Below, one piece after another: positions 31,055-50,136 of a DNA stretch of 50,266 nucleotides. The stretch lies in the NCBI GenBank assembly GCA_903874975.1, contig CAIQUL010000075.1, positions 1 through 50,266 on the forward strand, written 5' to 3'. The translations under genes and the position numbers were made by a program. Below the pieces are notes generated by a model. It ran no database searches and was not told where the DNA came from. It saw nothing but the letters and a program-made list of their open reading frames with translations. The stretch comes from an uncultured Chthoniobacter sp. (GTDB taxonomy: Bacteria; Verrucomicrobiota; Verrucomicrobiia; Chthoniobacterales; Chthoniobacteraceae). Position 1 is the first letter of the stretch, and each line of letters begins with the position of its first letter.

Positions 31055-31839
31055 ACCCTCGCAGGCGGCGCGGTTTCACGCTCATCGAGCTGCTGGTCGT
31101 GGTCGCCATCATCGCGGTCCTCGCCGCGCTGCTGCTCCCCGCTTTCCACAATGCGAAGATCAGCTCCATGGCCGTCAAGAGCAGCCAGAACCTGCGCTCG
31201 CTCGTCGCGGCCAACCTCTCCTTCGCGGCCGACCAGGGATTTTATGCACCGGCCGACGATAAAAAGAACCACCGGCGCTGGCACGGGGCGCGGACCTCGG
31301 CGGGCGGACGCTTCGATCCCACGAAAGGCTTCCTCGCGCCGTATCTCGGGAAATCCGGCGAAGTGACGAAGTGCCCGCTGTTTACGCAGATGATCGCGGG
31401 CAAGAGCAGCTTTGAAGACGGGACCGGCGGCTACGGCTATAACGCCGCCTACATCGGCGGCATGCCGAGCGGGGCGTGGAATTCCGACGGCACCCGCGTC
31501 TCGGCCCAACCGCCGGGCATTGCCCGCCCTTCGCAGACGGTGATGTTTGGCACCACCGCCTATGCGGTCGGCAAGGGCGTGCAGGAGTATCCGTTTCTCG
31601 AACCGCCCTTTTGGGATTTTTGCACTGGTCCCAGCGGATCGCGCCCTTCGCCGAGTTTGCACTTTCGCTTTGGTGGCAAAGCGCTTGTCGGGTGGTGCGA
31701 CGGCCACACCAGCCTGGAGCAAAAGGGCACCCGCGCCGAGGGCGACAATCCCCACGGAGGGGATGCCGAGGCGCAAAATCTCGGATGGTTTGGTCCGGAC
31801 GAAAACAACGGCTACTGGAACCCGGAACGCGAACCCTGA
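31051..31839 (+). CDS. Prepilin-type (type II secretion pseudopilin-like) protein
   Basis: The 262-residue protein begins MNPRRRRGFTLIELLVVVAI, the N-methylation prepilin signal with cleavage after the glycine and the conserved +5 glutamate. The hydrophobic helix then runs to about residue 30. The rest is a verrucomicrobial prepilin-like globular domain ending in FGGKALVGWCDGHTSLEQ, close to the xxDGH tail seen in many PVC pseudopilins. A prepilin peptidase (PilD) elsewhere should process it. The ATG at 31051 overlaps the stop of the preceding gene, so the three genes are translated as a unit. It may help export or display the two surface proteins. Confidence 0.88.
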   Translation: MNPRRRRGFTLIELLVVVAIIAVLAALLLPAFHNAKISSMAVKSSQNLRSLVAANLSFAADQGFYAPADDKKNHRRWHGARTSAGGRFDPTKGFLAPYLGKSGEVTKCPLFTQMIAGKSSFEDGTGGYGYNAAYIGGMPSGAWNSDGTRVSAQPPGIARPSQTVMFGTTAYAVGKGVQEYPFLEPPFWDFCTGPSGSRPSPSLHFRFGGKALVGWCDGHTSLEQKGTRAEGDNPHGGDAEAQNLGWFGPDENNGYWNPEREP

Positions 31840-31945
31840 GCGACCGTTCTACCGGCGTGGAATCGGCTTGTGACCGAGGGGGATTCGGCTTAGGACAGAA
31901 AACTGCTTTGGAGAGTTTCTCCGCAGCACCACACGAAAGAGAAAT

Positions 31946-34900
31946 ATGGCCACACAAGCTGAAATCATCGTCCGAGATGGCGCGCGCGCACTCGGGCGAT
32001 ACGTCCTCGATCCGGGGGAGTATGTCATCGGCAGGGATTTGTCCTGCGATGTCCTGCTCGACTGCCACGGAATCTCGCGCCAGCACGCGAAACTCACCGT
32101 CACCCAAGACCACCTCACGGTCAGCGATCTCGGAAGCACGAATGGAACTTTTTACGGCGAAAGCCCGGTGCAGGGCTCGACGGCCGTCCGCTCGGGGGAC
32201 TCGATCCGCATGGGCACGGCAGGCACGGCGATCATTCGCCTGATTCAAAGTGCGAAGGGCACGAAAGGGAAGGGGAGCGGCAGTGGCAACGGGAACGGGA
32301 ATGGTCATCACACGGACGCACATCCGGCTTCCGCAGAGGAGTTGAAAAAGGCGCTCTCGGAGCGGGATGCCACGCGGAAAAAACATGACGAGCTGGCGGC
32401 ACAATTTGTGGCGGCTTCGCAGCAGCTCGCGTCGCTGAAGGCGGATCTGAACCGGAGCGCCGAGGCGTCCATGCAGGCGGCAAAGGATCTCGACGTGCGG
32501 ACGAAGGAATTGCTGGCGCTGAAATCGGCGCACAGCTCCGCGGCGGAGCAGAAAGCGCAGGCGCAGGCGCAGGTCGGCCAGCTCCAGGCGGAATTGCAAA
32601 AGCAGGCGGCAGCGCAGAAGTCCGGGCAGGACAAGAACGCGAGTGCGCAACTCGAACAGCTCTGCGCGGATTACGAAAAGCGCATCAAGGTGCTCGAAGA
32701 GGAGCGCACGGCGGCGCTCAAGGAGCGCGATGAATTGCAGGCGCGCTGGCAGCAGCGGGAAAAGGAGCAGCAGGAGCGGTCGGCGAAGATCGAGCAGGCG
32801 CAGAAGGCGCTCGCCGGCGAGAAGGACAAGGCGGTCGCGGAACTCGCGGCGGTGCGGGAGGCGCAGCAGAAGGAGATCAAAGCGGTTCGCGCGGAGGAGT
32901 CCGCCGCGGTGCAGGCGCGGGATCACGCGCTGGCCCAACTCGGCGAAGTGAAGAAGCAACAGCCGGCTGCGGACAAGATCGCGCAGATCGAAGAGGCGCA
33001 TCGTCAGCAGCTCGAAGCCGCCCAAGCCCAGCGCCAGACGGCGCTGCAGGAGCGCGACGAAGCGATCGGACGCGCGCAGGAATTTGCGGAGAAACAGAAA
33101 GCGGAGATGGGCGCTTTGACGAAAAAGCAGAACGAGGCCGTGCAGGAGAGCGCGCGGCAGATCGATGCGCTGACCAAGGCGCTCGAAGCGCAGAAGCGCG
33201 AAACCGCCGCCGTCGCGAAGCAGCGCGACGCGCTCGCCAAAGAGCAGGAGGCGCAGACCCGCAATCTCCAGGGCGAGAAGGCGAACGTGCGGAATCAGGC
33301 GCAAGCGCTCGCCGTGCAGCAGAGTCTCGCGACCGCGCGCGACCAGGCGCTCGCGCACCTCGAGGAACTCCGCGCGACCCATGAGCAGCGTCTCTCCGGC
33401 TTGCAAAACGAGCACGCCATCACGCTCCGCGAACGCGACGAAGCGCTGCACGGTCTGAACGCCCTCAATCTCGAGCAGAAGCAGCAGCTCGAAGCCGCCC
33501 TCCGCGAGCGCGACCAGGCCGCGGCCGATCGCGAGGCCGCGGGCGCGAAAGCCACGCCGATCGTGGCCGCGCAGCGCGAGCAGATCGCCTCGCTCGCCGG
33601 CGAGCGGGATGTCCTCGCCCGCGAGAAAGCGCAACTCGCGCAGCAGCTCGCCGGGGCGCAAAAAAGCGCCGAAGCCAGCAACGCCCGGCTGCACGAAGAC
33701 CGCACGAGGTTTGCCGCCGAGAAGCAGGCCGAACTCGCCGAGCTGCAAAACCTCCTCGAATCGCAGAAGGGCCAGCTCGCCTCCCTCGCGGAGCAGCGGG
33801 CCGTGATCGCGCAGGAGCACGGCGACGTTGTGGCCCGCGTGCAGGCGCTGCTCGCCGAGCATGAGAAAGAGCGCGCTGCCTTCGCCGAGCAGCGCGACCG
33901 GCTCATCTCCGAGCGTGACCAGGCCGCCGCGAAATTTGCCGAGCAGACCGAGGCGCACCGCCAGCACAGTGCGGCGAAGGACGACGAGCGGCAGAACCTC
34001 CTCGCCGCGCGCGACCAGGCGCTGGCCCATCTCGACGAACTGCGCGCCGCGCACGAGCAGCGGCTCGCCGCTTTGCACAGCGAGCACGCCATCACGCTCC
34101 GCGAACGCGATGAAGCGCTGCACGGTCTGAGCGCCCTCAACCTCGAACAGAAGCAGCAGCTCGAAGCCGCCCTCCGCGAGCGGGACCAGGCGACCACCGA
34201 CCGGGAGGCCGCCGTTGCGAGAGTCACACCCGTCGTGGCCGCGCAGCGCGAGCAGATCGCCTCGCTCGCCGCCGAGCGGGATGTCCTCGCTCGCGAGAAA
34301 GCGCAGCTCATCCAGCAGGCGGCCAGCGCCGAGAAAGCCGTCGAAAAGCGCGCCGCCCGGCTGGAGGAGGAGCGCGAAATATTCGCCGCCGAGAAACTCG
34401 CCGAGCTGACCGAACTCCAGAACCTGATCGAATCGCAGCAAGGCCAACTCGCCTCGCTCGCGCAGCAGCGCGCCGCGGTCGCGCAGGAGCACACCGACGC
34501 CGTCGGCCGCATCCAGGCGCTGGCCGCGGCGCAGGACAAGGAACGCCTCGCTTTCGCCGAGGAACGCGACCGCGCGACCGCGCACTTTGCCCAGCTCAGC
34601 GACGAGCAGAAGCGGCAGTTCACCGCGCTCTCGGAACAGCGCGACCGGCTCCTCGCCGAGCGCGATCACGGGATCGGGCAATTCGCGGAACTCACCGATG
34701 CCCACCGCCAGCACGCCAGCGCGAAGGACGCCGAGCGCCTGAATCTCGTCACCGCCCGCGATCTCAGCCTGGCCCATCTCGATGAAGTCCGCGCGGCGCA
34801 CGAAACGTATCTCACCGGTTTGAACGAGGCGCACGCCGTGGCCGTGCGCGAACGCGACCAGGCACTCCAGGCCGCGCAGGGGCTGACTTACGAGCAGAAG

Positions 34901-37900
34901 CAGCAGATCGAAACGCTCCTCCGCGAGCGCGACCAGGCCATCGCCGACCGCGAGGCCGCGGGCGCGAAAGTGACGCCCATCGTTTCCGCGCAGCGCGAGC
35001 AGATCGCCTCGCTCGCCGCCGAGCGCGACGTGCTGGCGCGGGAAAAGGCGCAGCTCGCCCACCAAGCCACCACCTCGCAGCAGGCGCTGGCTGCGCGGTT
35101 GCGGAGCATGGAGGAGGACTTGCAGAAAGCCGCCGCCGACCGGCAGGCGGAGGTGGCGGAATTGCACCGCGTGAACGCCGCCCAGCAGGAACAGCTCGCC
35201 TCGCTCACCGAGCAGCGCGCCCAGCTCGCCGCGGTGCGCGAGGAGCAGGAGGCCCACGCGGTCGCGCTGGCCGCAGGTTTTGAGAAAGAGCGCGCCGCGC
35301 TGGAGGCCCAGCGCCTCGGGCTGGTGCAGGAGCGCGACCAGTCCGCCGCGCAGTTTGCCAAGCTCAGCAACACCCAGAAAAAGCAGTTCAACAGCCTCGC
35401 CGTGCAGCGCGACCGCCTGCTCAAGGAGCGTGACGCCGCGCTCGCCCAAATCGCCCAGCTCGGCGAGCAGCACGAGGCCCGCGCCGCCGCGCACCTCACC
35501 GAGCGCCAGGAAATCGCCGCTTCCCGCGACCAGCTCGCGGCCGGCACCGATGAACTTCGCGCCACCTACGAGAGTCAGCTCGCGCCTTTGCAGGAAGAGC
35601 GCGACCAGGCGCTGCGCGACCGCGACGAAGCCCGCCGCCAGCTCACTGCCGTGGATGAAACCCGGCAGATGGAGATCGCCACTTTCAAACAGGAAGCTGA
35701 AAGCCAGGCCGCCGCCCTCGCCGAATCTGCCCGGCTCGCCGAGGCGCAAAAGACTCAGCTCGCGAGCCTCGCGGATGAGCGCGAGACCCTGGCCCGCGAG
35801 AAGGCGGATGCCGCCGAACGTTTCGCCGCTGAGCGCCAGACGCTCAACCAGCGCCAGCAGGCGATCGCCGCCGACCGGGAGAAGCTCATCGCGGACAAGG
35901 CCGCCGCGGTCACGGAACTGCACACCCTGATCGACAGCCAGAAGGCGCAGCACGAGGCGCTCAAGCAGCAGGCCGCGGCTCTCGCCAAAGAGCGCGACGA
36001 GGCGCTCGCGCTCGCCGCCGAGTACGACGAGCGCTGCCAGAAGCACGTCGCCGCCCTCGGTAGCTTCCGGGTCAGTTCCGAAGAGCAGCACGGGCAGTCG
36101 CTCGCGCAATTCAACACGCTGTCGGACGAGCTGAAGCTGCAGCTCGGCACCGTGTCCGAGCAGCGCGCGCAGCTCTTCGTGGAGCGCGACGCGGCGCTGG
36201 CGAAACTCGCCGAGCTCAGCGCGACGCACTCGAAACATGTCGCCGCCGCGGAGGCGGGAAAAAAGAAGCTGCTCGCCGCCCGGGCCCACACTGCGGGGCA
36301 GGTCATCGAGATCCGCGCGGCCTACAACCAGCAGGTCGCCGCCGCCAATGAACAGCACGCGCAGACCACCGCGCAATTCACGAAGTTCTCCGAAGAACTG
36401 CAGGTGCAGCTCGCCGCCGTCACCGAGCAGCGCGCCGCGCTGGTCATCGAGCGCGACGCTTTGCAGACCCAGTTCGCCGCGCTCTCCGAGACGCATGCGC
36501 AGCACACCGCCGCCGCGGAGGCCGAGCAGAAAAAACTTCTCGCCGCCCGCGAGCACGCCGTCGCGCAGGTCGCGGAAATCCGCGCCGAGTTTGACCGCCA
36601 GATCGCCACGCACGGCGACCAGAACACGCAGGCGCAGGCGCAGTTCACCGCGCTGGCCGGACAGCAGCAGGAGCAGATCGAGGCACTCGCCGGGCAGCGC
36701 GCCGCGCTCCTCGTCGAGCGCGATGCCGCCGTGGCGCAATTCGCCGCGCTGACCGAGACCCACCGCCAGCACCTCGCGGCGGCGGAGACGGAGAAAAAGA
36801 AGCTCCTCGCCGCGCGCGCCCACGCCATTGCCCAGGTCGGTGAAATCCGTGCGGCGTTTGAGCAGCAGTTTGTCGCCACCGGCGAGCAGCACGCCGTCAC
36901 ACTGCGCGAGCGCGACACCGCCCTCGTCCGTCATGGTGAGATCAATGCCGCGCTGCAAAAGCAGCTCGAGACGCTGACGGCGCAGCGCGACACGCTGGTC
37001 GCGGAAAACGCCGCCAATACCGGACGCACGACCAAGGAGATCAATGCGCTGCGCGCCGAGATTGCCGCTCGCGATGCCGACCAGACGCACGCGCAGGAGA
37101 AGGCCGCGGCCGCCGCGGAGTTCCAGCAGATCGTCGCCGGTCATCAGGCCGACATCGCCTCGCTGACCACTCAGCGGAACACGCTGGCCGCCGAGCGCGC
37201 CGGCGCACTGGCCCGCATCGAGGCGCTGACCGCCGCGCGGAAGCAGGAGTCCGCCGACCTCGCCGCGCATCGCTCCCAGCTCGTCAGCGAGCGTGAGGAA
37301 GCCGCCGGGCGTTTCGCCCAGCTCGCCGCCGAACACGCCGCGCACCTCGCAGACCTGACGACCCAGCGCACCGCGCTGGCCGCCGAGCGCGACAAGACGC
37401 TGGCCGACCTCGCCGCCCAGCGCGAAGCCGCGCTGGCGGAACTCACCGCCACCCGCGCCGCTCACGCGAATTCGCTGCGCGAGCGCGACGAAGCCACCGC
37501 CGCGCTGCGCAAGACGATCGAGGCGCGAGCCCAGCAAATCGTCGCGCTGAAGGAAGACCGCGAGATTTTTGCGAAGGATCGCCAGAAGCATCTCGGCTCC
37601 ATCGAGGCGGCGGCGGCGGCGACCCTCCTGGATCGCGAGAACACGCTCAGCGCCCTGCGCCAGCAGCTCGACGCGCAGCAGAAGCACAACGCCCAGCTCC
37701 AGACTCAGCTCGCCGCTTTGACGGAGGAAAAGGACAAGAGCAAACTCAGCCTCGCTGATCTCGTGGCCTCGCACGGCGGACAGATCGCCGCCTTTGCCGC
37801 CGAGCGCGCGGGACTCGTGCGCGCCCGGGAGGAGACGCTCGCCGAAGGGGCCGCGACCGCCGCCGCCCACGGGCAGCAGATCGCCGCGCTGACCGCGCAG

Positions 37901-40900
37901 CGCGATGACCTGCTCCGCCAGCGCGGCGAGATGACCACGCACTTCGGGGCGGTGGCCGTCGCGCAGAAGGCGCAGCTCGCCGCGCTCAGCCGCGAGCGCG
38001 ACAAGCTGCTCAAGGAACGCTCCAAGCCGTCGGTGCTTTTCTCGAACGTCAGCGATTCGCAGAAGAAGCAGATCGACACGCTCAGCCTCACCGCCGAGAC
38101 GCTGCGCAAAGAGCACGCCGCCGCGCAAGCCCAGCTCGCGGAGATCAATGCCGAGCAGCAGAAGCACATCGCCTCGCTCGTCGAGCAGCGCGACCAGCTC
38201 GTGCGGGAGCACGAGGCCGCTCACGCGCGCCTCGGTGAAACCAACGACGCGCAGAAAAAGCAGATCGAAAACCTCGGGCGCGAGCGCGCGGCGGTCTTGC
38301 AGGAAAGGGAGCTGGCTCTGGCCCGCCTGAACGAGGTCAACACCGCCCAGCTTCAGCAGATCGAAGCGCTCAACACGCAGCGCGCGGCGATCTTGAAAGA
38401 GAAGGAAGAGGCGCACGCCCGGCTGGCGCAGATCAATGCGGCCCAGCAGGCGCAGATCGCTTCGCTGGAGGAGGCGCGCGGCGCTTTCGCCGAGGAAAGC
38501 GAGCGCACCATCGCCGGGCTCCGGCAGGTTCACGAGGGGCAGAAAAAGCATGTCGAAACGGCCGACGCTGAGCGTCTCGCCGCGGTCCAAGCCCGCGAGC
38601 AGGCGACTGCCGAACTGAAGCGCATCAGCGACACCCAGCAGAAGCAGATCGGCGAACTCCAGCAGCAGCGCGCGCAGCTCACCAAGGAGCGCGACCGGCT
38701 CGCCGCGAATCTCGCCAAGGTCACGGAGACGCACACCGAGGAAATGGAGGTGCTTTCCGTCGCCAAAACCACGCTGGCGCAGGAGCGGGACCAGTCGTTC
38801 GCGCAGTTCACACAGGCCGACGAGGTACAAAAGCACCAGATCGCCGCCCTCACCGCGCAGCGCGACGAGGTCATCCAAGAGCGCGACACCGCCCGCGCCG
38901 AAGTCGCCAAGCTGGCCGCGGCGAGCAAGGTGGAGACGACGGAGCGCAATGAACAGCGTGCGGCTGTGATCGCCGAGCGCGACGCTGCACTGACGCGTTT
39001 CGCCGAGGTCAATCAGGCGCAGATCAAACAGCTCGAGTCGCTGACCCAGGAGCGCGAGGCTTTGCTGATGGAGAAGGATGCCGCCCTCGCCCGGCTCATG
39101 GCCATCACCAACGTGCAGAAGGCGCAGATCGAAACGCTCTGCAAGGAGCGCGACACCGTGGTGCGGGAAAAACAGACGACCGTGGCCGAGCTGACCCGCC
39201 TGAACCAGGCGCAGACCCACCAGATCGCCGAGCTCGAGCGGGATTCGCTCGGGATCATTCAGAGGCACGACGAAGCGCTCAAGCAGCTCCACTCCGTCAA
39301 CGCCACGCAACTCGACCAGATCGCCTCGCTGGACCGTCAGCGGCTCGAAGTGCTGGAACAGCGCGATGAGGCGCTGGCGCAATTCCAGCAGGTGAATGAG
39401 TCGCAGCTCATGAGCATCGCCCTTCTCTCCACCGAGCGCGACGGCCTGCTCCGCCAGCAGGAAGACGACGCCGCGAAGCGTGCGCAAATGCAGGAAAGAG
39501 ACAGCTCCGCGATCAAGGAACTCGACCGCGAGCGGGAGGAGATTTCCAAGAAAGTGGCCGAGGCTCAGGCCGCGCGGAACGCCATGCAGCGGGAGCGCGA
39601 CGAGGCGCTCGCCGTCCACGCCCGCGCGCGGGAAAATCACAAGCGCGAACTCGACAACCTCGCCCAGCAGCGCGAGACGCTGATCGACGAACGCGACCGC
39701 GCGCTCGTGAAATTGGAAACCATTTCCAACAACCGCGAAGGCGACCTCGCCGGCCTCGCGGAGATCAACGCCAAGCACAAGGAGGAGCTGGCCGGGATGG
39801 TCACGCAATTGAAGAAGACCGCCTCGGAACGCGACGAACTCATCGCCCGCCTCGACCGGCTCAAGGAAAGCCACAAGTCGCAAATCGACGAAGTCGTCCG
39901 CGAGCGGCTCAACGTCATCGAGGAGCGCGACAAGGCCACTGTCCGCCTGGAAAAGGCGCGCGAGGATTTGTCCACGAGCGAGGCGAACTTCGACACCGAG
40001 CGGCAGTATCTCATCAAGGAACGTGACAAGGTCTTTGCCCAGCTCGACGAAACCCGCAAAGCGCAGAAAGCGCTGGAGCAAACGCTCGACGAGAACTCCC
40101 CGCTCGCCCAGGAACTCGCCGTCGCGGAAAAAACGTGGCGCGCGCTCGACACCGGCAAAAACAAGGAAGCCGCGGCCAAGCTCGACAAGCTCTTTGGCAG
40201 CCTGCGGGCGCGACTGCGCGGCTCCCAGCAGCAGGTCACCGAGGTCAGCAAGCTCGAATCCTTCAAACTCACGCCGGCGGAGAAGCTCCTCGCCCGTCAC
40301 AAATACGAACTCGGCAGCGAAATCTCCCGCGACAAGTCCATCGTGCTCTACCGCGCGAAGGACATGAATATCTCCCGCGAGGTCACCATGAAGCTCGTTG
40401 GCGACGACGCCGCCTCGCGTGACGCCGCCATCGCGCAACTCATCGCCGAGGCGCAGATGATCGGTCGCCTCGAGCATCCCAATATCCAGCCGCTGCACGA
40501 ACTGAGCGTAGATGACTCGGGTCGCGCCTTCTACACGGCCAAGCCGATGAAAGGCTCCACGCTCGCCAAGATCCTCGACGATCTGCGCGCGAAAAAATCG
40601 AGCGCCCTTGTCGCCTTCGACCTGAAGAAAATCCTCTCCACCTTCCACGGCGTGTGCGATGCCGTCGCCTTTGCCCACTCGGAAGGAATCGTCCACGGAC
40701 GCCTCAGCGCCGAGCACATCCAAATGGGCGACTACGGCGAAGTCCTCGTCACTGGCTGGGAGATGGGCCGCAAAATCCGCGAAGGCAACGTCAACCACTA
40801 CGAAGCCGACGTCCGCGTGGACATCGCCGCCCTCGGCGACCTGCTCTACCACATCCTCACGCTCACTCCGCCGGCAGCGGACAAAAAGGAGGTTGCCAGC

Positions 40901-41101
40901 GCTCCGCACGCGAATTGGAAAATGCCGAAAGGCCTCTGGACGCTCACCCAGCAGATTCGCTCCAACCGCGGCGCCACCGCCTACCCGCGCGTCGCCAAGC
41001 TGCAAACGGAAGTCGAGGACTTCCGCGACGAACTCGGGCCACGCGGCGGCCGCGCCACCGCCTTCGACGTGCTCAAGCAGAGCGTGCAAAAGTGGCAGTA
41101 G
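31946..41101 (+). CDS. Giant FHA-coiled-coil-pseudokinase protein
   Basis: The 3,051-residue protein has three parts. Residues 1-100 are an FHA phosphothreonine-binding domain with GR (29-30), SRQH (44-47) and STNGT (64-68). Residues 140-2770 are almost continuous Glu/Gln/Ala/Leu/Arg-rich coiled coil built from long repeats: units of about 225-255 residues starting near 464, 690, 938 and 1194, then about 89-residue units near 1400-1650, then about 26-31-residue units. Residues 2786-3030 have a protein-kinase fold. K2816 (VTMKLV) and the following AEAQMIGRLEHPNI are kept, but the HRD motif reads HGR (2917-2919), the metal-binding Asn is H2924 and the DFG/DWG aspartate is G2937. It should therefore be a pseudokinase. 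There is no signal peptide, so it is a cytoplasmic scaffold, probably reading phosphorylation by another kinase. Confidence 0.9.
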   Translation: MATQAEIIVRDGARALGRYVLDPGEYVIGRDLSCDVLLDCHGISRQHAKLTVTQDHLTVSDLGSTNGTFYGESPVQGSTAVRSGDSIRMGTAGTAIIRLIQSAKGTKGKGSGSGNGNGNGHHTDAHPASAEELKKALSERDATRKKHDELAAQFVAASQQLASLKADLNRSAEASMQAAKDLDVRTKELLALKSAHSSAAEQKAQAQAQVGQLQAELQKQAAAQKSGQDKNASAQLEQLCADYEKRIKVLEEERTAALKERDELQARWQQREKEQQERSAKIEQAQKALAGEKDKAVAELAAVREAQQKEIKAVRAEESAAVQARDHALAQLGEVKKQQPAADKIAQIEEAHRQQLEAAQAQRQTALQERDEAIGRAQEFAEKQKAEMGALTKKQNEAVQESARQIDALTKALEAQKRETAAVAKQRDALAKEQEAQTRNLQGEKANVRNQAQALAVQQSLATARDQALAHLEELRATHEQRLSGLQNEHAITLRERDEALHGLNALNLEQKQQLEAALRERDQAAADREAAGAKATPIVAAQREQIASLAGERDVLAREKAQLAQQLAGAQKSAEASNARLHEDRTRFAAEKQAELAELQNLLESQKGQLASLAEQRAVIAQEHGDVVARVQALLAEHEKERAAFAEQRDRLISERDQAAAKFAEQTEAHRQHSAAKDDERQNLLAARDQALAHLDELRAAHEQRLAALHSEHAITLRERDEALHGLSALNLEQKQQLEAALRERDQATTDREAAVARVTPVVAAQREQIASLAAERDVLAREKAQLIQQAASAEKAVEKRAARLEEEREIFAAEKLAELTELQNLIESQQGQLASLAQQRAAVAQEHTDAVGRIQALAAAQDKERLAFAEERDRATAHFAQLSDEQKRQFTALSEQRDRLLAERDHGIGQFAELTDAHRQHASAKDAERLNLVTARDLSLAHLDEVRAAHETYLTGLNEAHAVAVRERDQALQAAQGLTYEQKQQIETLLRERDQAIADREAAGAKVTPIVSAQREQIASLAAERDVLAREKAQLAHQATTSQQALAARLRSMEEDLQKAAADRQAEVAELHRVNAAQQEQLASLTEQRAQLAAVREEQEAHAVALAAGFEKERAALEAQRLGLVQERDQSAAQFAKLSNTQKKQFNSLAVQRDRLLKERDAALAQIAQLGEQHEARAAAHLTERQEIAASRDQLAAGTDELRATYESQLAPLQEERDQALRDRDEARRQLTAVDETRQMEIATFKQEAESQAAALAESARLAEAQKTQLASLADERETLAREKADAAERFAAERQTLNQRQQAIAADREKLIADKAAAVTELHTLIDSQKAQHEALKQQAAALAKERDEALALAAEYDERCQKHVAALGSFRVSSEEQHGQSLAQFNTLSDELKLQLGTVSEQRAQLFVERDAALAKLAELSATHSKHVAAAEAGKKKLLAARAHTAGQVIEIRAAYNQQVAAANEQHAQTTAQFTKFSEELQVQLAAVTEQRAALVIERDALQTQFAALSETHAQHTAAAEAEQKKLLAAREHAVAQVAEIRAEFDRQIATHGDQNTQAQAQFTALAGQQQEQIEALAGQRAALLVERDAAVAQFAALTETHRQHLAAAETEKKKLLAARAHAIAQVGEIRAAFEQQFVATGEQHAVTLRERDTALVRHGEINAALQKQLETLTAQRDTLVAENAANTGRTTKEINALRAEIAARDADQTHAQEKAAAAAEFQQIVAGHQADIASLTTQRNTLAAERAGALARIEALTAARKQESADLAAHRSQLVSEREEAAGRFAQLAAEHAAHLADLTTQRTALAAERDKTLADLAAQREAALAELTATRAAHANSLRERDEATAALRKTIEARAQQIVALKEDREIFAKDRQKHLGSIEAAAAATLLDRENTLSALRQQLDAQQKHNAQLQTQLAALTEEKDKSKLSLADLVASHGGQIAAFAAERAGLVRAREETLAEGAATAAAHGQQIAALTAQRDDLLRQRGEMTTHFGAVAVAQKAQLAALSRERDKLLKERSKPSVLFSNVSDSQKKQIDTLSLTAETLRKEHAAAQAQLAEINAEQQKHIASLVEQRDQLVREHEAAHARLGETNDAQKKQIENLGRERAAVLQERELALARLNEVNTAQLQQIEALNTQRAAILKEKEEAHARLAQINAAQQAQIASLEEARGAFAEESERTIAGLRQVHEGQKKHVETADAERLAAVQAREQATAELKRISDTQQKQIGELQQQRAQLTKERDRLAANLAKVTETHTEEMEVLSVAKTTLAQERDQSFAQFTQADEVQKHQIAALTAQRDEVIQERDTARAEVAKLAAASKVETTERNEQRAAVIAERDAALTRFAEVNQAQIKQLESLTQEREALLMEKDAALARLMAITNVQKAQIETLCKERDTVVREKQTTVAELTRLNQAQTHQIAELERDSLGIIQRHDEALKQLHSVNATQLDQIASLDRQRLEVLEQRDEALAQFQQVNESQLMSIALLSTERDGLLRQQEDDAAKRAQMQERDSSAIKELDREREEISKKVAEAQAARNAMQRERDEALAVHARARENHKRELDNLAQQRETLIDERDRALVKLETISNNREGDLAGLAEINAKHKEELAGMVTQLKKTASERDELIARLDRLKESHKSQIDEVVRERLNVIEERDKATVRLEKAREDLSTSEANFDTERQYLIKERDKVFAQLDETRKAQKALEQTLDENSPLAQELAVAEKTWRALDTGKNKEAAAKLDKLFGSLRARLRGSQQQVTEVSKLESFKLTPAEKLLARHKYELGSEISRDKSIVLYRAKDMNISREVTMKLVGDDAASRDAAIAQLIAEAQMIGRLEHPNIQPLHELSVDDSGRAFYTAKPMKGSTLAKILDDLRAKKSSALVAFDLKKILSTFHGVCDAVAFAHSEGIVHGRLSAEHIQMGDYGEVLVTGWEMGRKIREGNVNHYEADVRVDIAALGDLLYHILTLTPPAADKKEVASAPHANWKMPKGLWTLTQQIRSNRGATAYPRVAKLQTEVEDFRDELGPRGGRATAFDVLKQSVQKWQ

Positions 41102-41135
41102 TGCACGCCTCACGCGCGGCCCGGAAGCGGGTGTG

Positions 41136-41573: not shown

Positions 41574-42161
41574 GTGCGAGTTCTTACTGCCGCCGGACGG
41601 AGGCGCTGGGTGCAGCGGCTCGACGACCGGGCGCGCGCCGAGGCGCGGGACTGCTGCGGAGTCCCCGCACCGGGGCCGGAGCCGGATGGCCGGCGGAGCG
41701 ATCTGCGCCGGGGCTGGTATTGGGGCAGCCAGGCATTTGCGGAACGGATGCTCAAGGTGGGCGCGGCGGTGCTCAAGAAGCCGCGCCATCGCAGCGACCG
41801 GGCAAGCCCGGACCGGCGCGCGCACGGGGAACAGGAAGCCCGGCGGTTGCTGGCCGAAGGGACGGCGGTCGCCGGGTTGAGCGAGGCCGCCCTGAAGAAG
41901 CTGCCGGGAAGCGACCCACGGAAGGTGGCCATTGCGCGGTTGATTTGGGAGCAAACGGCCGTGGGCATGGCCTGGCTGGCGGCGCACCTTCACCTGCGCA
42001 GTGCAGCCAATGCCAGCCAGCAAATCCGCCGTCACCGCCAACAACCGCCCAAATTGTCAAAAGCCAGGCAACGATGGATGCTCCAGTCAAAAATGTTGCC
42101 TGCCCCCTATTTCCGCGTTCTCACCGTCCCCGGTGCGGCGGGCGTGAAAGTAAATTCCTAG
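41574..42161 (+). pseudogene. 3' part of a REP-associated tyrosine transposase (RAYT)
   Basis: The frame encodes the C-terminal half of a RAYT: VLTAAGRRRWVQRLDDRARA, RRGWYWGSQAFAERMLKVGA, GSDPRKVAIARLIWEQTAVG and MAWLAAHLHLRSAANASQQI. The N-terminal half, with the HUH histidines and the catalytic tyrosine region, is absent, and only a GTG serves as start. RAYTs are single-copy domesticated IS200-like transposases that move REP palindromes. The frame ends at TAG within AAATTCCTAGCAGC (42152-42165), a motif seen again at 20947 and 50124. It is most likely inactive. Confidence 0.75.
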
Positions 42162-48260: not shown

Positions 48261-48410
48261 AGGGAAAGACACATTTTTACTTTGCGCTCCCGCACCGCGA
48301 CGCCCCCTCCGTCTCGTGATCACCCGCCGTCCACCGAAACGGAGTTGCGCCCTTTCTCATTCACTCCAAATCCAAACTGTTGAGCATTTTGCACACATGC
48401 ACGGACTGAC
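48261..48410. other. Spacer ending in the insertion site of the IS
   Basis: No gene is visible. The last nine bases, CGGACTGAC at 48402-48410, recur after the insertion sequence (49965-49973) and again after the short relative (50058-50066), and so mark the insertion target. Confidence 0.6.
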
Positions 48411-49964
48411 CCGAATGGCACTAAGATAAGACGGATTTAGGATGGATTTATCTCGGCTGGCGGGGTGAAAAACGGTAGGTAAAAGCATGTCGAACAAGAC
48501 CCCGTTTTTCAAGGCCTTTGGACCCCTGCTTTTTGGCCGTCCGGCGCGGCGGACGTTGCAGAAACTAAGTCGGCTCAACTCCCTCCAAGAACTCTACGAG
48601 ATCTTTGGACACCTCTTGCCGGAGCGGTTGTTGGCGGCGACGGAGAACGGGGTGAATAGTCGGGATCGGCTCTTCAGCACCCAGGTGACCTTTTGGGCTT
48701 TTGCCGCGCAGATATTGAGTCCCGGAACGGCTTGCCGAGAGATGGTGCGCCGGGTGGAGGCGTGGTGGCAGGAGACGATGGGTTCGGAGCAGGCGCCGAG
48801 CGGTTCGACGAGCGCTTATTGTCAGGCGCGGGCACGGCTGGACCCGGTGGCACTGGAACTCATTGGTGCCGAGATCGCCTGGAACCTGGAGAAGAATGTC
48901 CTGAGCGAGGAGCGTTGGTTACAGGGGCGCTCCGTGAAGATCGTCGACGGCACGGGGATCAGCATGCCCGATACGCCGGAGAACCAGGCGCGGTGGCCCC
49001 AGTCCTGCGAACAACAGCCCGGTTGCGGCTTTCCCGCGATGAAGCTGGTCGGGCTTTTTTCCCTGGGCAGCGGAGCGCTCCTGCAGACGGCCACTGGCAA
49101 CAAACACGTCCATGAAAGCACGCTCTTCCGGACCCTGTGGAGCAAGCTGCAACCGGGCGACATTGTCCTGGCCGACCGTGGCTTTTCCTCCTACGCCGCG
49201 CTCGCCGGCCTCCTGGCACAGCGCGGGGTCGACAGCGTCATGCGGCTCCACCAGATGCGGAAAGCGGACTTTCGCACCGGGCGCCGTCTGGGTCCGGAGG
49301 ACCGGCTCGTCGTCTGGCAGAAGCCGAAACGCACCGAGGCCTGGAGCGAGGAGGAGTTCGCGGCCCTGCCCGAAACGCTGACCTTGCGCATGATCCGGCT
49401 GCGCGTCGCCACCCCAGGCTTCCGCACCCAGAGCGTCGTCTTAGTCACCACGCTCCTCGATGCGGAGGCTTACCCTGCCGAGCAATTGCGGGAACTCTAC
49501 GGACGCCGTTGGCAGGTGGAGTTACACTTTCAGCAAATCAAAACCCACCTGGCCATGGATGTCTTGCGGTGCAAAAGCCCGGCCCTCATCGAGCGCGAAG
49601 TGCGCATGCACCAGATCGCCTACAATCTGGTGCGCAGCCTCATGCAACGCAGCGCCCATCTCCATCGCGTCTCGCTGCGCCGCCTCAGCTTCAAGGGGAC
49701 GCTCGATACCTTACGGCATTGGTCCGTCCTGGTGGCCGCTGAGACCACCCCGCGCGCGCAGCAGACCCTCATCGATCACATGCTGGCGCGGATCGCGGGC
49801 GATCCGGTGCCGGAGCGTCCCGGACGGAGCGAACCACGCGCGAAAAAACGCCGCGGGAAAAACTATCAACTGCTCACCAAACCACGAGGCCAGACGGGCA
49901 ATTTGCCCCGCCGCAATCGAGCCAAGGTAAAACAGCCTAAAAGGGTCTTATCTTAGTGCCATTC
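48411..49964 (+). mobile_element. IS4-family insertion sequence
   Basis: The element is about 1,554 bp long. Its terminal inverted repeats share AATGGCACTAAGATAAGAC (left 48414-48432, right in reverse complement 49945-49963). Outside the repeats lies CGGACTGAC on both sides (48402-48410 and 49965-49973), a likely 9-bp target duplication. It carries one transposase gene that looks intact, so the element may be active. Exact outer ends are uncertain by one or two bases because the two tips differ (CCGAATGG against CCGGAATGG). Confidence 0.88.
48487..49956 (+). CDS. IS4-family DDE transposase
   Basis: The 489-residue protein catalyses cut-and-paste movement of its element. The three acidic residues of the DDE site are visible: VDGTGISMPDT (first Asp), VLADRGFSSYAA (second Asp), and YGRRWQVELHFQQIK, which supplies the glutamate within the Y-(2)-R-(3)-E-(6)-K signature of the IS4 group. 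A DNA-binding helical region precedes these (SLQELYEIFGHLLPERLL). The C-terminal tail is basic. The stop codon and the last few codons lie inside the right inverted repeat, so the element is compact. No frameshift is seen. Confidence 0.93.
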   Translation: MSNKTPFFKAFGPLLFGRPARRTLQKLSRLNSLQELYEIFGHLLPERLLAATENGVNSRDRLFSTQVTFWAFAAQILSPGTACREMVRRVEAWWQETMGSEQAPSGSTSAYCQARARLDPVALELIGAEIAWNLEKNVLSEERWLQGRSVKIVDGTGISMPDTPENQARWPQSCEQQPGCGFPAMKLVGLFSLGSGALLQTATGNKHVHESTLFRTLWSKLQPGDIVLADRGFSSYAALAGLLAQRGVDSVMRLHQMRKADFRTGRRLGPEDRLVVWQKPKRTEAWSEEEFAALPETLTLRMIRLRVATPGFRTQSVVLVTTLLDAEAYPAEQLRELYGRRWQVELHFQQIKTHLAMDVLRCKSPALIEREVRMHQIAYNLVRSLMQRSAHLHRVSLRRLSFKGTLDTLRHWSVLVAAETTPRAQQTLIDHMLARIAGDPVPERPGRSEPRAKKRRGKNYQLLTKPRGQTGNLPRRNRAKVKQPKRVLS

Positions 49965-49973
49965 CGGACTGAC

Positions 49974-50057
49974 CCGAATGGCGCTAAGTTAAGGCCTGTT
50001 TTCAGAGTAAACACCCCGAGCGGCTTATCTCAAAAGCTCCTTATCTTAGCGCCATTC
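49974..50057. mobile_element. 84-bp non-autonomous (MITE-like) relative of the IS
   Basis: AATGGCGCTAAGTTAAGG at 49977-49994 faces CCTTATCTTAGCGCCATT at 50039-50056, an inverted repeat with one mismatch that closely resembles the ends of the adjacent IS. There is no gene inside. It is bounded on both sides by CGGACTGAC (49965-49973 and 50058-50066), the same nine bases that flank the IS. It is probably an internal-deletion derivative mobilised by the same transposase. Confidence 0.78.
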
Positions 50058-50066
50058 CGGACTGAC

Positions 50067-50136
50067 CCCATTTTCGCTCCATTTGCGCTTCGGAAACTGG
50101 AGGGATGCCGATGAAAAGGAGCGAAATTCTAGCAGC
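50067..50136. mobile_element. RAYT-type element end (remnant)
   Basis: CCCATTTTCGCTCCATTTGC at 50067-50086, preceded by the TGAC of the repeat, gives the TGACCCC motif. AAATTCTAGCAGC at 50124-50136 is one base shorter than the AAATTCCTAGCAGC that ends the two other RAYT-type tails (20947, 42152). It is probably the original sequence into which the IS and MITE inserted. It abuts a truncated sulfite reductase gene. Confidence 0.5.

Follow-up and report, generated by a model that had tools for sequence, protein, structure and literature searches.

Within the window (the whole 50,266-nucleotide stretch that was analysed, on contig C75 of an uncultured Chthoniobacter sp.), an insertion sequence (IS) of the IS4 subgroup and a MITE stand side by side, bounded and separated by three identical copies of an 11-bp target. 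To explain the pattern, two insertions into a single target are required, of which either the IS or the MITE may have come first, and we consider it very probable that the stack arose by IS4-subgroup cut-and-paste transposition, with reuse of a target that the transposition itself had duplicated. The short stretch shows target-specific stacking of transposons at a site renewed by their own insertion; the biology is mostly ordinary, and the record is unusually clear, with the reuse of the target evident.

Two elements between three copies of an 11-bp repeat

Table 1. Features of the stacked locus in the window, and loci elsewhere that are discussed in the text
Feature	Position	Strand	Description or basis
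Repeat matching C194, about 130 bp	48282..48412	+	ends in REP-like hairpin TGCACACATGCA and tail CGGACTGACCC
Target-site duplication, copy 1 (CGGACTGACCC)	48402..48412	+	sequence reading, string count, comparison with C152
IS4-subgroup insertion sequence, 1552 bp	48413..49964	+	perfect 18-bp terminal inverted repeats GAATGGCACTAAGATAAG
Transposase ORF, 489 aa	48487..49956	+	DDE D154, D230, E345; Y(2)R(3)E(6)K motif, residues 338-352
Target-site duplication, copy 2, common to IS and MITE	49965..49975	+	sequence reading, end-to-start gap scan
MITE, 82 bp	49976..50057	+	three identical genome copies: C75 (window), C152, C340
Target-site duplication, copy 3 (CGGACTGACCC)	50058..50068	+	sequence reading, string count
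Right-hand remainder of interrupted RAYT-type end	50069..50088	+	alignment to the C194 empty site
Elements with inverted flanks	L175:1321-2875 (exact), L140:716-931, L134:1943-2200, L118:429-1980, L109:365-479, L211:475-780
Other stacked places	L109, L187, L190 (= L225 place), L204, L226		end-to-start scan

A window-wide string count revealed CGGACTGAC at 48402, 49965 and 50058, always on the + strand, with no further copy (three against 0.60 by chance; three were reached in 1 of 100 shuffles). Because these copies fit the element ends exactly, a chance occurrence is far less likely than the shuffle figure would indicate. An earlier note had described three 9-bp direct repeats enclosing an IS and then an 84-bp element. 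The positions and the arrangement were correct, but the identity runs two bases further, giving the 11-mer CGGACTGACCC, and with this repeat length the second element measures 82 bp. With the 11-bp boundary, both elements start with GAATGGC and finish with GCCATTC. Their ends are indeed nearly identical, as that note had it: over the first 18 bp, 16 or 17 positions are common to the MITE ends and those of the IS. The resemblance is confined to these outer ends, agreement dropping to 24-26 of 40 bp further in.

The 82-bp element has the features by which a MITE is recognized: it is short, contains no ORF, carries IS-type terminal repeats and is present in several copies. A target duplication was found on both sides of the copies in C75 and C152, while that in C340 lies at the end of the contig, which stops exactly at the MITE end. 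In C152, the MITE lies between 11-bp copies of CCGACAGTCCC, identical on both sides, within a stretch that reads as coding (for what we take, judging from the letters, to be a GxxExxY-type protein). The MITE was probably moved by the transposase of the window IS itself; another IS4-type element may have been the mover, because the MITE ends differ from those of the IS at one or two of the first 18 bp and agreement drops further in; contig C47 has a fragment of a diverged IS.

Because the identical C152 MITE sits between different 11-mers, the copies of CGGACTGACCC are target-site duplications and not element ends. That CGGACTGAC might instead be a constant piece of the element ends, the finding that the earlier note had named as refuting a target duplication, now has a negligible probability. 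The flanks of related elements do share a consensus, which makes 11-mers of separate copies resemble each other; however, among the 148 sites listed these vary widely, yet usually match across one element, and the C152 flanks rule the fixed-end reading out. The target-duplication reading survived this check.

The two ends of the IS agree at 18/18 bp. The product of its ORF matches Pfam DDE_Tnp_1 (E 4.6e-29) and, above the cut-off, NCBIfam transpos_IS4_1 (NF033592; E 1.2e-66). It contains the YREK motif YGRRWQVELHFQQIK at residue 338 and the catalytic spacing D154-75-D230-114-E345, in agreement with the IS4 family pattern Y(2)R(3)E(6)K plus D(60-110)D(100-150)E. There is one full copy of the IS in the genome, plus a diverged fragment at the end of contig C47. 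Elsewhere in the window, two giant open frames overlap on opposite strands (31382-41113, -, 3243 aa; 31946-41101, +, 3051 aa); the + strand frame reads as a coiled-coil protein, of which the - strand frame is probably a shadow.

The interrupted site and the origin of the stack

We found that contig C194 runs without interruption through CGGACTGACCCCTTTTCG, and that the window flanks, when joined, align to this site, a paralogous uninterrupted target. The exact sequence GGACTGACCCCATTTTCG, sought in the window's own genome, was found only in the window, and the C194 site has three mismatches. Contig C340 matches the final 39 bp of the left flank of the stack, in which the target is contained; its MITE is in the opposite orientation and therefore represents a separate insertion into a second copy of the repeat.

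Among the 213 genomes of the order, with the window's own included, 6 contain the pattern TGCANNCNTGCANGGACTGACCCC at up to two mismatches, against one match in one genome for the reversed control. In the own genome it is present on C75, C340, C194 and C39, and in the relative G078 two copies lie head to head in a REPIN-like arrangement. The C340 copy falls on the stop codon of an ORF, and the C-terminal part of the encoded sequence gives matches to the C-terminal ends of Y1_Tnp/RAYT proteins from family relatives. The Pfam domain Y1_Tnp is present in a full-length example of such proteins, and the C340 fragment itself gave no match in Pfam or NCBIfam. From sequence comparison we therefore take the target to be probably the 3' terminus of a RAYT gene in decay, its tail being REP-like but without the canonical GTAG tag. 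The suggestion that a RAYT-type end had been hit is supported in this genome, with GCACACATGCACGGACTGACCC located at the 3' end of the C340 ORF with its RAYT-like C-terminus.

Another remnant resembling the C-terminal part of RAYT-type proteins is present at 41574-42161 (+) in the window; it matches the tail of the C340 sequence with E 3.3e-10, without a Pfam or NCBIfam match of its own. Just to the right of the last target copy, at 50072-50126, there is a 13-bp inverted repeat, TTTCGCTCCATTT / AAAAGGAGCGAAA. In a genome of the same genus, a RAYT-type gene (L224; about 429520-430525) has an IS-end remnant just upstream (G017:C61:430585-430619), beside TCGCCTGACCC.

In the proposed mechanism, an IS4-subgroup cut-and-paste transposase would mobilize both the IS and the MITE. 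The target that it prefers to cut would be a palindrome of 11 bp, GGGNCWGNCCC, of which the insertion makes a second copy. Because the recognized site would lie wholly within the duplicated 11 bp, every insertion would leave two intact targets, in one of which a second element could then land, giving the order target-element-target-element-target. Here the element that landed first would have found its target in the tail of the REP-like hairpin with which the decayed RAYT gene ends. Target immunity would appear to be absent.

Two successive insertions at one target, as put forward earlier, are still the best reading, given that the inner and outer 11-mers are equal and that the C152 flanks differ. 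The alternative raised with it, in which the IS and the MITE had become adjacent at another locus and were carried jointly into the window site via their outermost ends, is improbable. These ends would make a workable inverted pair, and at least one other target copy (C340) exists where the pair could have arisen; however, the equality of the inner and outer 11-mers requires that the donor site was the same repeat, the match otherwise being due to chance. Moreover, no second IS-MITE pair was found in the genome, where the IS is single and, as far as the sequence is assembled, neither of the two remaining MITE copies has an IS beside it. An assembly artefact, with two loci mis-joined at the repeated MITE, is more improbable still: the assembly is fragmented (348 contigs) and one contig breaks off at the very end of a MITE, but the three 11-mers of the window agree, and the right end of the MITE is followed by three different flanks (C75, C152 and C340), which makes the paths distinguishable.

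Target preference and stacking in other genomes

Because a protein search of the genome contigs with the transposase found no relative, the end pattern GAATGGCRCTAAGWTAAG was taken as the query. Within the order it occurs in 27 of the 213 genomes; across many phyla it was found in at least 114 stretches, 10 of which contain, among the matches listed, a relative of the transposase (35-57% identity). Both ends were in view for 66 elements among the matches listed, and these were flanked by direct repeats (48 elements, against 2.7% of between-locus pairs), inverted repeats (6) or neither (12).

The palindromic target GGGNCWGNCCC was matched at 7 or more of 9 positions by 53 of the 148 sites listed (a non-redundant set, one per insertion), compared with 0.30% of background 11-mers. 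None of the 32 cyanobacterial sites listed reached this score. The cyanobacterial loci (e.g. L113, L125, L176, L196, L207) have the same terminal repeats, and several pairs have 10-bp duplications. The six elements with inverted, near-identical 11-mers (Table 1) compare with 2.6% expected from between-locus pairs; one explanation is recombination of oppositely oriented copies within one repeat family.

Recurrence of 11-bp stacking is a prediction of a self-renewing target. When the matches were scanned for the end of one element followed by the start of another, with gaps of 7-14 bp allowed, the arrangement came up in the window and, among the matches listed, at five further distinct places, and in each case the gap was exactly 11 bp. 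L190 is the only one of the five in which all three 11-mers are in view and identical. It consists of two 137-bp elements with three copies of AGGCCTGACCC, beside a RAYT fragment, and is the closest parallel among the matches listed; its two copies hardly differ, however, so that L190 could equally well have arisen by tandem duplication of a single element. The IS and the MITE of the window differ, and duplication therefore cannot explain their arrangement. In L204 the left side is one base off and the right side out of view, in L187 the left side is out of view, and in L109 and L226 the left outer flanks are inverted.

For an IS4 subgroup of broad distribution, and for its MITEs, these data define an 11-bp target precisely enough to be tested. 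The points of specialist interest, though not of astonishment, are the link to RAYTs and the repeated occurrence of stacking.

RAYT and REP ends as possible landing sites, and comparison with known systems

A preference for RAYT ends is well supported in this genome and weakly supported across phyla. We regard it as a tentative idea, with the balance against it, that a widespread IS4-subgroup lineage and its MITEs use RAYT/REP ends as renewable landing pads and pile up there in several phyla. If this were true, the 11-bp target would fit RAYT tails and be regenerated by every landing, so that one mobile system would systematically parasitize another.

A stricter form of the link, in which the elements recognize RAYT/REP ends as such (by the hairpin or its flanks) and the 11-bp consensus is a by-product, seems unlikely. 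In its favour, two of the three sites at which the MITE is inserted in this genome read as RAYT ends, and of the nine places with CGGACTGACCC, two of three at REP tails contain an element, compared with none of the remaining six (one-sided exact p ~0.08), an occupancy that is suggestive only. L111 and L117 also lie behind hairpins of the TGCA-N-TGCA type. Against it, the C152 insertion is outside such a repeat, any RAYT match was found in just 11 of the 114 loci listed, the cyanobacterial sites lack the consensus, and a flank test yielded 5 loci, compared with 1 among controls. An A-rich flank signal was strong against unrelated sites (p 5e-7), yet weak (p 0.086 and 0.017) against other flanks from the same data; this test was devised after the flanks had been seen, with 192 flanks at first, of which 185 were kept for the same-data comparison upon removal of those that were element ends.

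As to proximity, a RAYT gene lies within 150 bp of an element end in 5 of the 11 RAYT-bearing loci listed, which was matched in 74 of 5000 circular shifts and favours recognition of RAYT ends. We relied on circular shifts alone. A first test with three query proteins had placed RAYT in 8 of the 114 loci listed, 3 within 200 bp (52/1000 shuffles) and 5 within 500 bp (4/1000), and a profile test against a single random position had given 5 within 150 bp (0/2000); both nulls were rejected as too lenient, because one locus can contain several element ends.

A search of the literature at the level of bibliographic entries returned no description of IS4 elements in RAYT ends or of this stacked form. 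Tobes and Pareja (2006, PMC1525189) describe ISRm22 and other REP-targeting ISs, with an IS4-family IS inserted in a palindromic repeat. The type 1 elements defined there have all their copies in REPs, whereas one of the three MITE places here (C152) is elsewhere, and the usual GTAG tag is missing from the repeat. According to Nunvar (2010, PMC2817692), REP-like hairpins occur at the rayt stop codon or just past it; the present case would be alike in its hairpin at the stop codon of a probable RAYT remnant, but the tail is CGGACTGACCCC and not GTAG/GTGG. Unlike a canonical REP, the window-type motif TGCACACATGCACGGACTGACCCC has no GTAG or GTGG tag next to the hairpin.

Subgroup IS4 of the IS4 family, as characterized by De Palmenaer (2008, PMC2266710), has ends of the form -AATR--------WTW----, a length of 1400-1650 bp and direct repeats of 10-13 bp, and for some of its members insertion is strikingly specific with respect to the arms of the target. 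The window IS fits this description in its end signature (GAATGGCACTAAGATAAG at both ends), size (1552 bp) and repeat length (11 bp), and its transposase in the YREK motif and DDE spacing. It does not fit subgroup IS231, whose ends start with CAT, its own starting with GAATGG. IS231A prefers the target GGG(N)5CCC; the target described here has the same outer GGG/CCC spacing over 11 bp, but with an additional C-W-G core, and is used by elements with the ends of another subgroup.
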